DNA of 22,738 nt. Source: a virus. This document shows, piece by piece, positions 4,522 through 22,738 of the stretch (positions are counted from its first letter, which is position 1; every line of letters begins with the position of its first letter). Location of the stretch: the IMG/VR virus record IMGVR_UViG_3300030107_007660, positions 9,012 through 31,749 of that record; one strand, written 5' to 3'. Made by a program: the position numbers and the translations under genes. Under the pieces are notes generated by a model, which was not told the DNA's origin, made no database searches, and saw only the letters and a program-made list of their open reading frames with translations.

Positions 4522-4864
4522 TCTCATCTCCTTTTGACTCCATTGCAATTAATATTTTCATAGCTTGGTCCCAATCTCCAATTGAGATCTGCTGCCATGT
4601 TCCATCTGGGATGGCGTTTTTCAAAGAAGACAAAGCCATGCTTTGCCAATACTTGAAAATTATTTCAATTCCTTGATCTTGTTCCGGGCTAACCGCTTTT
4701 AATAGCTCTTTTGAGGTCTTCTCTGTGTACCTCAAAAGAGCTAGGCAGTTAACAAGCGTGATCTTGTAAAGTAGAGTCCTACTCCAAAGACCAAATATTC
4801 TAATTCCAGAAGCATGTGCTAACACTCCTGAAAAAAATGTAATAAATATATCTATAAGCTCCAC
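4508..4864 (-). CDS. Conserved hypothetical protein with hydrophobic N-terminus
   Basis: A protein of about 118 residues. Two in-frame GTG codons are possible starts. The second (4864) has AAAGGTG 6 bases upstream and is preferred over the one at 4873, which overlaps that site; the protein then begins MELIDIFITFFSGVLAHASG. The first 40 residues are strongly hydrophobic and could form a membrane-associated or buried helix pair. The C-terminal half holds conserved-looking aromatic positions (IFKYWQSMALSSLK, WQQISIGDWDQAM). Similar short proteins occur in marine T4-like phages as I remember, with no known function. It starts immediately after a strong terminator hairpin, so its expression would need read-through. 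Its end overlaps the ClpP-like start by 14 bases. Confidence 0.75.
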   Translation of the reverse strand: MELIDIFITFFSGVLAHASGIRIFGLWSRTLLYKITLVNCLALLRYTEKTSKELLKAVSPEQDQGIEIIFKYWQSMALSSLKNAIPDGTWQQISIGDWDQAMKILIAMESKGDENENR

Positions 4865-20558: not shown

Positions 20559-21701
20559 CTATTTTTCCTCGCTGTCGATGTCGTAAAAATCCTCTGCTTT
20601 GCCCTCTTTATTCTCAAATCTCATTATAATTTCTTCGTCCATCAACTGCAGCACTCTAGATCTAAATTTCTCATTTTCTAGTTTGTCAACCCACTTTGAG
20701 GCCTGGAATTTTTCTTGAGTACCATCTTCATGTGTTAGGGTGTACCAAGCGCCTGACACTTGCAAAGAGTCCGACACTTTTATTGCCTCGAACCAACTCT
20801 CTTCATCTTGGATACAAGCGTCTTCAGAGCCCCATAGAATTTTAAATGTGCATTGACGTCCTTGAGTGCCGAACCTGCTCTTCTTTAAAGTAACTTTGAC
20901 TTCTGATCCGATTCTAAAACCATTTTCGTCAGTAACAAATGATGCTTTAGCTTTTCTAGACGTCAGCCACATTCTCAAGGAGTAGGTATATGGCAATGAC
21001 TTGCCACCTGGAGTGAACCAGGGAGTTGTCATAGCTTCTGCTACATTGCTAGTAATGTTAGTTTTTAACTGGTTCAGTACCAGCAAGGTAGATTGCGTGT
21101 TGGCAATCGGCTGTGTCAGTTTTTGTACGCCTTTTGATAAAATTCTAGGCTTTACGGCCATTGAGGACTGAGGATTGAAGTCGCCGGCGATATCGGTTTC
21201 ACAAGGAGTTTGCGCAACGGAATCCCAAACAAAAAGCATAGAGTTTTCGTTTGTCCCCAACATCTCTTCAATGGTCTCTAAGACCGTTTCGACACTATGA
21301 GCTTGCGTATATAAAAACCAACCCATTCCATCAGGTGGCTCTTCTTCTAAGTGGCAACCAACTCTCTCTAAAAACACACTATCGATAGCAGATTCTGAGT
21401 CGAAATAAACCACGTCGATGCCCATTTTTTGAGCATTTGCAGCAATCTGTGCTGCCATATAAGACTTGCCGGTGCTTTCTTGACCGGCGATTTCAACAAC
21501 CTTTCCTAGTGGAATGCCGGCTAGTTTTCCCTTGCAGACAATACTATCCAACCATCGTGAGCCGGTTGGAATCCACTTTTTTACATCGGTAGGGTTCTCA
21601 CCGGATAAAGAAAAAGCGATCTCAGATCCAGCTTTTTTATTAACGAGACTTCTCATCTCTTTAAGATTTAATCTTCCCAGCTTTTTTGCTTTTTTGGCCA
21701 T
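20559..21701 (-). CDS. RecA/UvsX-type recombinase
   Basis: A 380-residue strand-exchange ATPase used in recombination-dependent replication and repair. Walker A is GQESTGKS (73-80), matching RecA GPESSGKT, and Walker B-like MLFVWDSVAQTP follows, then the loop region (SSMAVKPRILSKGV) and LLVLNQLKTNI. The C-terminal part (about 290-380) is acidic, ending EDFYDIDSEEK. Length and end resemble T4 UvsX and marine-phage RecA more than bacterial RecA. The start overlaps the preceding one-helix protein by 34 bases. A gp32-type ssDNA-binding protein would be expected nearby; the partial gene at the right edge is a candidate. Confidence 0.95.
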   Translation of the reverse strand: MAKKAKKLGRLNLKEMRSLVNKKAGSEIAFSLSGENPTDVKKWIPTGSRWLDSIVCKGKLAGIPLGKVVEIAGQESTGKSYMAAQIAANAQKMGIDVVYFDSESAIDSVFLERVGCHLEEEPPDGMGWFLYTQAHSVETVLETIEEMLGTNENSMLFVWDSVAQTPCETDIAGDFNPQSSMAVKPRILSKGVQKLTQPIANTQSTLLVLNQLKTNITSNVAEAMTTPWFTPGGKSLPYTYSLRMWLTSRKAKASFVTDENGFRIGSEVKVTLKKSRFGTQGRQCTFKILWGSEDACIQDEESWFEAIKVSDSLQVSGAWYTLTHEDGTQEKFQASKWVDKLENEKFRSRVLQLMDEEIIMRFENKEGKAEDFYDIDSEEK

Positions 21702-21979
21702 TGGTCTTCTTCCAGTTGTGGTATCTCCAAAGTTATCTCTGGATCTCGTGTATTGTTGTAATCAACAAGAGTGTGGTTTATGAAATCTCTCTGTCGCATA
21801 TCAATATGCTCTACCTTGTTCCCGAGAGGAATTAAAATTTCTTTTGTTTCTTTAAGATTTTCATTTATCTCCTGGACTAACTTTACAGAATAGATTCTTT
21901 TGTTCTCCAAATAAGCGCCTAGCGACATCCCTGAAATAAACAACCCAACCAACATGGCTATTATTATAATAAGCTCCAT
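21668..21979 (-). CDS. Small membrane protein with one N-terminal helix
   Basis: A 103-residue protein with a hydrophobic N-terminal membrane helix at about residues 2-23 (MELIIIIAMLVGLFISGMSL), followed by a soluble, helical and charged remainder (VKLVQEINENLKETKEILIP) with an acidic end. No clear ribosome-binding site precedes the ATG, but a TATAAT lies at 21999-22004, just after the first pseudoknot-like element. The end overlaps the recombinase start by 34 bases. No family is recognised. It could anchor a complex at the inner membrane, but nothing in the sequence proves it. Confidence 0.75.
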   Translation of the reverse strand: MELIIIIAMLVGLFISGMSLGAYLENKRIYSVKLVQEINENLKETKEILIPLGNKVEHIDMRQRDFINHTLVDYNNTRDPEITLEIPQLEEDQWPKKQKSWED

Positions 21980-22008
21980 AACAATAACTAGTCTTGTGAT
22001 TATAAATT

Positions 22009-22044
22009 AAGGCACCTGTAAACCCGTGCCTTCCTGCGGTTTAC
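22009..22044 (-). promoter_or_regulatory. Pseudoknot-like RNA element, copy A
   Basis: In minus-strand RNA two interlocked stems are possible: GTAAACC (22044-22038) with GGTTTAC (22024-22018), and AAGGCAC (22032-22026) with GTGCCTT (22015-22009). The strand order is that of an H-type pseudoknot. It starts about 10 bases after the lipoprotein stop and ends about 30 bases before the next start. A second copy with about 30 of 36 matching bases lies at 22406-22440. A U-rich tail is weak, so it is not a standard terminator. I do not recognise it as a known riboswitch. Confidence 0.7.
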
Positions 22045-22054
22045 TACCTAGATT

Positions 22055-22375
22055 TTAACAATCAGGATTTGTACTTGACGTTGGCTCTGTAGTCGGCGTT
22101 GGAACTACAGGAGTCGGCGTCGGGGCGGTCTCCGTGGGCACATTAGCACTTGGCGGAGTGACAGTCTCCGTAACTGTCGCGGGCTGCGCCGAGGGCGTAA
22201 TTGCAGTCGGTACCGCACTTGCCGCCGGCTCATTATCGCTAGTCACAGCCACAGAGGGAGTGGTAGTTTGGTTCGCATTAGCAGAAGTTGCTTCTGTCGA
22301 AGAGTTACTAAAAAACTCACAACCGCTCATAGTCAACATGATTGCCGAAATGGCAAGTAAATTTCTAATCATCAT
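22055..22375 (-). CDS. Thr/Pro/Ser-rich lipoprotein
   Basis: A 106-residue protein with AAAGGA 8 bases before the first of two ATG codons. It has a type II signal peptide ending in a lipobox (LTMSGC), with Cys19 as the predicted lipid-modified residue. The rest is low-complexity Thr, Pro, Ala, Ser and Val (for example TPTPVVPTPTTEPTSS), ending NPDC, and would be an extended, possibly flexible chain. Phage lipoproteins often block superinfection or alter the envelope, but the sequence gives no direct sign of which. It lies alone between two pseudoknot-like elements, beside the recombinase block. Non-virion expression in an infected Gram-negative cell is likely. Confidence 0.85.
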   Translation of the reverse strand: MMIRNLLAISAIMLTMSGCEFFSNSSTEATSANANQTTTPSVAVTSDNEPAASAVPTAITPSAQPATVTETVTPPSANVPTETAPTPTPVVPTPTTEPTSSTNPDC

Positions 22376-22405
22376 TTTTAAAATCCTTTTGTTTATTTTA
22401 GAAAT

Positions 22406-22440
22406 AAGGCACCTGTAGCCCGTGCCTACCTGCGGCTTGT
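22406..22440 (-). promoter_or_regulatory. Pseudoknot-like RNA element, copy B
   Basis: The second copy, between the right-edge gene and the lipoprotein gene. AGGCAC (22427-22422) pairs with GTGCCT (22412-22407), and AGCC (22437-22434) pairs with GGCT (22420-22417). Compared with copy A, one pair changes from U-A to C-G on both sides, a compensatory change. The element begins 4 bases after the preceding stop and ends about 31 bases before the next start, nearly the same spacing as copy A. Confidence 0.7.
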
Positions 22441-22443
22441 ATT

Positions 22444-22738
22444 TTAGCCCAACAGCTCTTCAAATGCCTTGTCAACATTACTTTGAGGCGAAGAGCTTTG
22501 GTACTTTGATGTTTCGGTACTCACATCCTCTGCATCTTCCTCTCCAAGCAGGAATTCATCCAGCATGACTTGAATCTCACCTGGAGTCTTACGAGCAGAC
22601 TCAAAGACGTCATCATATGCAGGAATTGAATCTAGCATACCAGCAATGGCGTCATCGTCCTCAGCTAGAGGCGAGGGGCGCCGGCGCGGAGTGATCGCAG
22701 TTTGCGGGAACTGAGCGCCTGCAGGCTTTCCATAGTGG
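22444..22738 (-). CDS. C-terminal part of an acidic-tailed protein, possibly ssDNA-binding protein
   Basis: The reading frame stays open from the stop at 22444 to the right edge, so this is the last 97 codons of a longer gene; an internal ATG at 22638 is not its start. The segment runs from a Gly/Pro/Gln/Arg-rich stretch (KPAGAQFPQTAITPRRRPSP) to an acidic, Ser-rich tail ending NVDKAFEELLG. A flexible linker and an acidic C-terminal tip are typical of phage gp32-like ssDNA-binding proteins, and the neighbours are recombination and replication genes. No OB-fold is in view, so this assignment is a guess. Confidence 0.6.
   Translation of the reverse strand, partial: HYGKPAGAQFPQTAITPRRRPSPLAEDDDAIAGMLDSIPAYDDVFESARKTPGEIQVMLDEFLLGEEDAEDVSTETSKYQSSSPQSNVDKAFEELLG

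Follow-up and report, generated by a model that had tools for sequence, protein, structure and literature searches.

A conserved H-type pseudoknot RNA with terminator-like features downstream of gp32-like and other viral genes

The gp32–uvsX region and its two pseudoknots

The window, i.e. the whole stretch of 22,738 nt analysed here, forms the right-hand portion of an IMG/VR contig of 31.7 kb, and the genes there lie on the minus strand. A gp32-like single-stranded DNA-binding protein (SSB) gene at the contig end is separated by pseudoknot A from a lipoprotein gene, which pseudoknot B in turn separates from a small membrane-protein gene; uvsX comes next (Table 1). A full-length member of the gp32 family was assigned to Pfam PF08804 and PHROG 1192, and the family search gave no match for the lipoprotein gene.

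Table 1. Features of the gp32–uvsX region (positions in the window)
Feature	Position	Strand	Remarks
UvsX/RecA-like recombinase gene	20559..21701	-	PHROG 97, E 2e-52; cluster 1; usual gene downstream of the element
Small membrane-protein gene	21668..21979	-	Cluster 9; homologues also 3' of the element in other contigs
A/U tract 3' of copy B, AAUUUAUA	22001..22008	-	
Pseudoknot copy B	22009..22040	-	S1 22040-22038/22024-22022, extendable to 22044/22018; S2 22032-22026/22015-22009
Loops of copy B	L1 22037-22033; L2 22025; L3 22021-22016	-	L1 GCAGG; L3 UUACAG
Small lipoprotein gene	22055..22375	-	Lipobox MLTMSGC; belongs to the variable set of small genes in the gp32–uvsX interval
A, then U-rich tract 3' of copy A, AUUUCUA	22399..22405	-	Position-specific U enrichment in the family
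Pseudoknot copy A	22406..22436	-	S1 22436-22434/22420-22418; S2 22428-22422/22412-22406
Loops of copy A	L1 22433-22429; L2 22421; L3 22417-22413	-	L1 GCAGG; L3 UACAG
gp32-like ssDNA-binding protein gene (T4 type)	22444..22738	-	C-terminal 97 aa; contig ends within the gene; clusters with gp32 homologues (cluster 0)

A first-pass annotation had described two near-identical pseudoknot-like elements in minus-strand RNA around the lipoprotein gene, and we located both stems in both copies, the outermost S2 pair of copy A being U.U, which leaves 6 bp formed. That annotation had not recognized the upstream gene as a gp32-type SSB or the presence of UvsX downstream. The compensatory difference in S1 that it had pointed out is present, with an outer pair of G-C in copy A and A-U in copy B. 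Its placement of the elements between a stop and the next start codon also agrees with our measurements: copy A begins 7 nt after the gp32 stop codon and copy B 10–14 nt after the lipoprotein stop codon, and the next ATG follows at 30 and 29 nt, respectively. A model built from relatives, whose training set held both copies or near-identical ones, found exactly two sites in the contig, copies A and B (E 1e-8 and 2e-10). Thermodynamic folding of the single copies yielded z values of –0.24 and –1.9; single-copy energy folding is weak evidence and uninformative here, and the comparative evidence decides. Elsewhere in the window, positions 4693-4761 form a long near-perfect hairpin (GCTCTTTTGAGGT / ACCTCAAAAGAGC) with a weak and probably meaningless miRNA match.

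Structure, covariation and distribution of the RNA family

The element is a 31–32-nt H-type pseudoknot composed of S1 (3 bp), L1 ([G/A]CAGG), S2 (7 bp), L2 (1 nt) and L3 (5–7 nt, with a 3' end that is mostly ACAG), and 195 distinct elements (306 copies) fit this layout. APC-corrected mutual information, computed for 146 distinct sequences, recovered the stem pairs without prior input of the stems: the top pairs were S1a3-S1b3, S2a1-S2b1, S2a6-S2b6, S2a7-S2b7 and S2a2-S2b2, followed by the loop set L1-1/L2/L3 and S1a2-S1b2. In 44 sequences, 99.1% of pair cells contained standard pairs, and two-sided changes occurred in 68 cells, compared with 21.9 ± 3.9 after shuffling and no more than 18 after sliding. 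The stems contain 32 G.U and 0 A.C wobbles; therefore, the coding-strand RNA is the folded, working molecule. These sequence comparisons strongly support a conserved pseudoknotted RNA. They also bear out the structured RNA proposed in the first-pass annotation, which had named a lack of further covarying copies in related phages as grounds for rejection; the stems covary, and many more copies were found in such phages.

The loop set L1-1/L2/L3 switches jointly from G,G,A to A,A,U (types I and II). The gp32 tree requires six or more such changes, so they do not go back to a single inherited event, and their repeated, joint character suggests a tertiary contact. The conserved loops are likely to form a tertiary core, which would stabilize the knot despite an S1 of only 3 bp. 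In type III, a hairpin is inserted in L3 and the end reads TAATAG. Tandem knots separated by 10–14 nt occur at L171:4001-4069, L173:3928-3996 and L092:2811-2883, the last being composed of one knot of each type.

Rfam 15 covariance models gave no match, up to E values of 1–10, at the elements in the window and in loci L001, L171, L092, L057, L195, L228 and L217, in accordance with the earlier failure to assign the RNA to a named riboswitch class. REP/BIME elements are likewise intercistronic and recurrent; however, REP sequences are simple imperfect hairpins, whereas the element is a pseudoknot with invariant loops. The STAXI motif (RF01728) resembles the element in consisting of pseudoknots, sometimes in tandem, in the vicinity of genes for SSB and other DNA-handling functions, although it is known from Enterobacteriales and has two or three repeats with UUCG tetraloops, unlike the element (PMC2864571). 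We rejected this candidate: cmscan gave no STAXI match, and none was found in seven records, though 14 control genomes gave no match either. The literature that we searched, with preprints and most subscription journals outside its scope, contained no description of such an element. The family, with its strong structural and tertiary covariation, is apparently undescribed so far.

An exact pattern that fixes 22 bases and allows a loop of variable length (GCAGGNNGGCACG-N3-7-ACAGGTGCC) matched at least 119 IMG/VR viral contig stretches, such exact-pattern counts being lower bounds. The same pattern had six matches in 84,980 cellular species genomes, of which about four look like chance, with S1 not forming or a different context. 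In 31 viral records read whole, we found 1–3 copies each, on one strand per record, and 0 matches to the reversed pattern; a relaxed fixed-length pattern returned mostly chance matches. A blastn search of cultured phages with a 41-nt consensus, a query so short that power is low, found none, and the relatives-built model had no match on the gp32 loci of T4, SPO1, LysYB1, immuto, Bellamy, DSL-LC03 and Mel-JY01. The carriers are all uncultured, and their contigs are probably mainly marine.

A GC-rich variant with a GGC/GCC-type S1 was also seen (L124:7361, L125:1377 and 3083, and L057), located 3' of a family of ~420 aa that had no PHROG or NCBIfam match and no Pfam match above cutoff, and which, judged by eye, resembles DUF932. 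The contigs with this variant include some that were binned as a Poseidoniaceae MAG and a proteobacterial MAG.

Gene context and the position behind gp32

With genes called by simple ORF rules, the element started within 15 nt of a stop codon in 155 of 184 cases, and the next gene began 16–45 nt 3' of it in 162 of 184, about 26 nt after the knot. The preceding gene was gp32-like for 76 of 159 copies and the next gene was uvsX for 41 of 159; others were found 3' of FKBP, ParB-like or other small genes. Downstream lie UvsX/RecA, FKBP or small lipoprotein genes. A few elements follow unrelated families (DUF932-like by eye, PHROG 4652) in contigs without detected gp32. Among records with non-adjacent copies, 12 of 18 also encode gp32; a search for gp32 gave no match in G010 (81 kb), G012, G004, G017 and the 5.8-Mb G039, where viral records may be fragments. 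At many loci, the interval between gp32 and uvsX contains a variable set of small genes, encoding lipoproteins, an FKBP isomerase, a cold-shock-like protein or membrane proteins. These often have their own pseudoknot 3' of each gene, resembling exchangeable units. A pseudoknot for stop-codon readthrough was rejected, as downstream ORFs fell into frames 0/1/2 in 39/50/37 cases, which is near random.

We then considered 79 loci fetched by the gp32 protein and not by the motif. A pseudoknot was called by script directly 3' of the gp32 stop codon in 46 of these (24 type I, 15 type II and 7 type III), or 48 when L236 and L208 were added by eye. The same slot held 13 script-called terminator-like hairpins, one or two of these calls being doubtful (we treated L164 as having an adjacent gene instead), and several more were seen by eye; the next gene was directly adjacent in 11 loci, and a few loci had other arrangements. 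Changes between the pseudoknot and terminator states occurred at least nine times on the gp32 tree, a quick tree with many weak branches on which states were labelled by hand and four large-loop hairpins were counted as terminators. For example, the sister genes L200 and L204 (78% identity, SH-aLRT 100) differ in this state. Hairpins with a T tract are also found 3' of T4 gene 32, SPO1 gp32.4 and LysYB1 gp32. The sequence data thus establish both the post-stop position of the element and its repeated exchange with terminator-like hairpins. In L163, L180, L181, L247, L272 and L292, long stems 3' of gp32 or before uvsX enclose a large loop with TTCCTCCTAG / TTCCCCCTA, possibly an anti-Shine-Dalgarno loop. 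A pseudoknot candidate of different appearance, lacking the GCAGG loop, occupies this slot about 50–75 nt before uvsX in L251 (ACCG-TTT-GGGAGCAC-G-CGGT-TTAAAATAA-GTGCTCCC-ATTTTT).

A U-rich tract follows the element, enriched and phase-locked to the end of S2: U reaches its highest fraction, 0.74, at +5, G is at most 0.01 from +2 to +6, and the longest T run is 3.7 behind the element compared with 1.9 in 155 control junctions. The element resembles intrinsic terminators such as the hairpin after T4 gene 32 in its post-stop position, in a G+C-rich stem at the gene 3' end (S2, 7 bp and covarying) and in occupying the gp32–recA/uvsX interval, and it too has U-rich sequence behind the stem. However, it is a pseudoknot with invariant loops and not a short-loop hairpin, and its U tract is weaker (4.05 compared with 6.3 T of 8 in the terminator class) and offset by a conserved A that follows S2. 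The loop closed by S2 (L2, the S1 3' strand and L3) spans 9–13 nt in type I and type II elements and more in type III, with most S2 loops at 12–14 nt, compared with 3–8 nt for a short terminator loop.

Upstream of gp32, the element was found in only 1 of 71 leaders within 250 nt, and in that locus (L192) it lies at the end of the preceding gene, directly before the promoter-like site of gp32. The leaders contain a second conserved RNA, observed in 59 of 70: AG, an 8-bp stem, an 8-nt loop (G/A)A(G/A/T)ATTNG and ACTWTA, located 30–60 nt before the gp32 start in L162-L241 (e.g. L222:2467-2503 and L196:755-791). All eight pairs covary, with 147 two-sided changes compared with 46 in shuffles, in a set whose selection required pairing, and no Rfam match was found in the loci scanned. 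It is possible that this hairpin is a gp32 operator or a 5' stabilizer. A promoter-like sequence was present upstream in 39 of the 59 leaders with the hairpin, often 8–9 nt from it, and gp32 therefore looks like its own transcription unit. Behind the elements, L241 has TTTACA-16-TATAAT between the element and uvsX; among elements with long gaps, promoter-like sites numbered 5 of 17 (2.9 expected), with no overall enrichment.

A putative 3'-boundary element and its alternatives

Because the common factor among the copies is a gene end, mostly that of gp32, and because the element interchanges with terminator-like hairpins, we favour, with moderate confidence, the reading that it is a cis-acting, pseudoknotted, terminator-like 3'-boundary element. 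Just 3' of the stop codon, the nascent mRNA would form a compact H-type pseudoknot with a U-rich tract behind it, and together these would stop part of the RNA polymerases and/or 3'-to-5' exonucleases, so that termination or 3'-end protection would yield a stable message with a defined 3' end for gp32, which is presumably highly expressed. The short gap to the next gene leaves no room for a promoter, and read-through would therefore be required; it would supply smaller amounts of the following products (lipoproteins, FKBP, UvsX). The weaker U tract, the A that precedes it, an S2 loop longer than usual and invariant loop bases beyond what a terminator needs all run counter to a terminator, and a next start 16–45 nt downstream suits a 5'-leader element equally. 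Among the roles that had been offered in the first-pass annotation (processing, transcript-end protection and translation control), definition or protection of the transcript end is preferred here, since a terminator-like hairpin occupies this position behind gp32 in relatives and U-rich sequence comes after the knot; for translation control of the next gene, we saw no positive evidence here.

The main rival, which we regard as rather unlikely, is a gp32-binding translational operator following the T4 paradigm, in which the SSB would nucleate on the pseudoknot, spread over the A/U-rich leader and the Shine-Dalgarno sequence, and repress the next gene. T4 gp32 represses its own message in this manner: in its operator, a pseudoknot precedes a stretch rich in A/U that contains the ribosome site (PMC535899, PMC3014915). 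The T4 leader is compatible with an S1 of the CC/GG type and an S2 of 7 bp. The element is similarly an H-type pseudoknot before an A/U-rich leader with a ribosome site, its spacing to the next start is suitable, its usual upstream gene is gp32-like, and most records with non-adjacent copies encode gp32. However, the T4/RB69 operator is located 5' of gene 32 and is autoregulatory, whereas the element lies 3' of the gene and has an L1 of 5 nt with the consensus [G/A]CAGG, compared with 1 nt in T4. Its near-absence from gp32 leaders (1 of 71), which bear another conserved hairpin, led us to reject gp32 autoregulation through the element, and both the five carriers without a gp32 match and the exchange with terminator-like hairpins also argue against an operator. 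The same exchange weighs against mRNA processing, an unlikely scheme in which an RNase would cut the A/U-rich stretch behind the knot and the knot would stop exonucleases, separating the gp32 and uvsX messages without termination. The stretch is A/U-rich and G-poor and tandem knots exist, and a precedent is provided by T4 gene 32 mRNA, which is cut by RNase E near the stop codon, with processing sites conserved in five relatives (PMC3014915).

In view of its near-invariant loops and correlated tertiary positions, the element might instead be a riboswitch-like RNA that senses a small molecule or protein and controls the next gene or termination. Small H-type pseudoknot aptamers (preQ1-I, SAM-II and SAM/SAH) are similar in size, topology and loop conservation. 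The SAM/SAH riboswitch has been described as a pseudoknot of the H type (PMC7367207). The element differs from these in consensus and gene context and does not capture the ribosome site; the knot does not include the Shine-Dalgarno sequence, the downstream genes are diverse, two or three copies are possible per operon, and Rfam riboswitch models do not match, making a sensor quite improbable. Least probable, and very unlikely, is a DNA recombination site of the attC type for exchange of the small genes between gp32 and uvsX, as might be suggested by the variable genes between copies and a site after each stop codon. attC folds on the bottom strand, whereas the wobble polarity indicates the coding strand and argues against any DNA-level site, as do the U tract and the swaps with terminator-like hairpins.

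A further reading, to which we give only a small chance, is a switchable pseudoknot terminator, in which gp32 or a metabolite would bind the knot and thereby set the balance between stopping after gp32 and running on into uvsX. Such a switch would couple the SSB level to the recombinase level and would represent a new class of regulated terminator in uncultured, probably marine, phages. If the element binds gp32, the classic T4 regulation would be extended to a different place and target. If it terminates transcription, a pseudoknot can stand in for a terminator hairpin, and both terminator annotation and the physical models of termination would be broadened. The RNA family itself is found in at least 100, and probably many more, uncultured viral genomes and adjoins a core replication gene.
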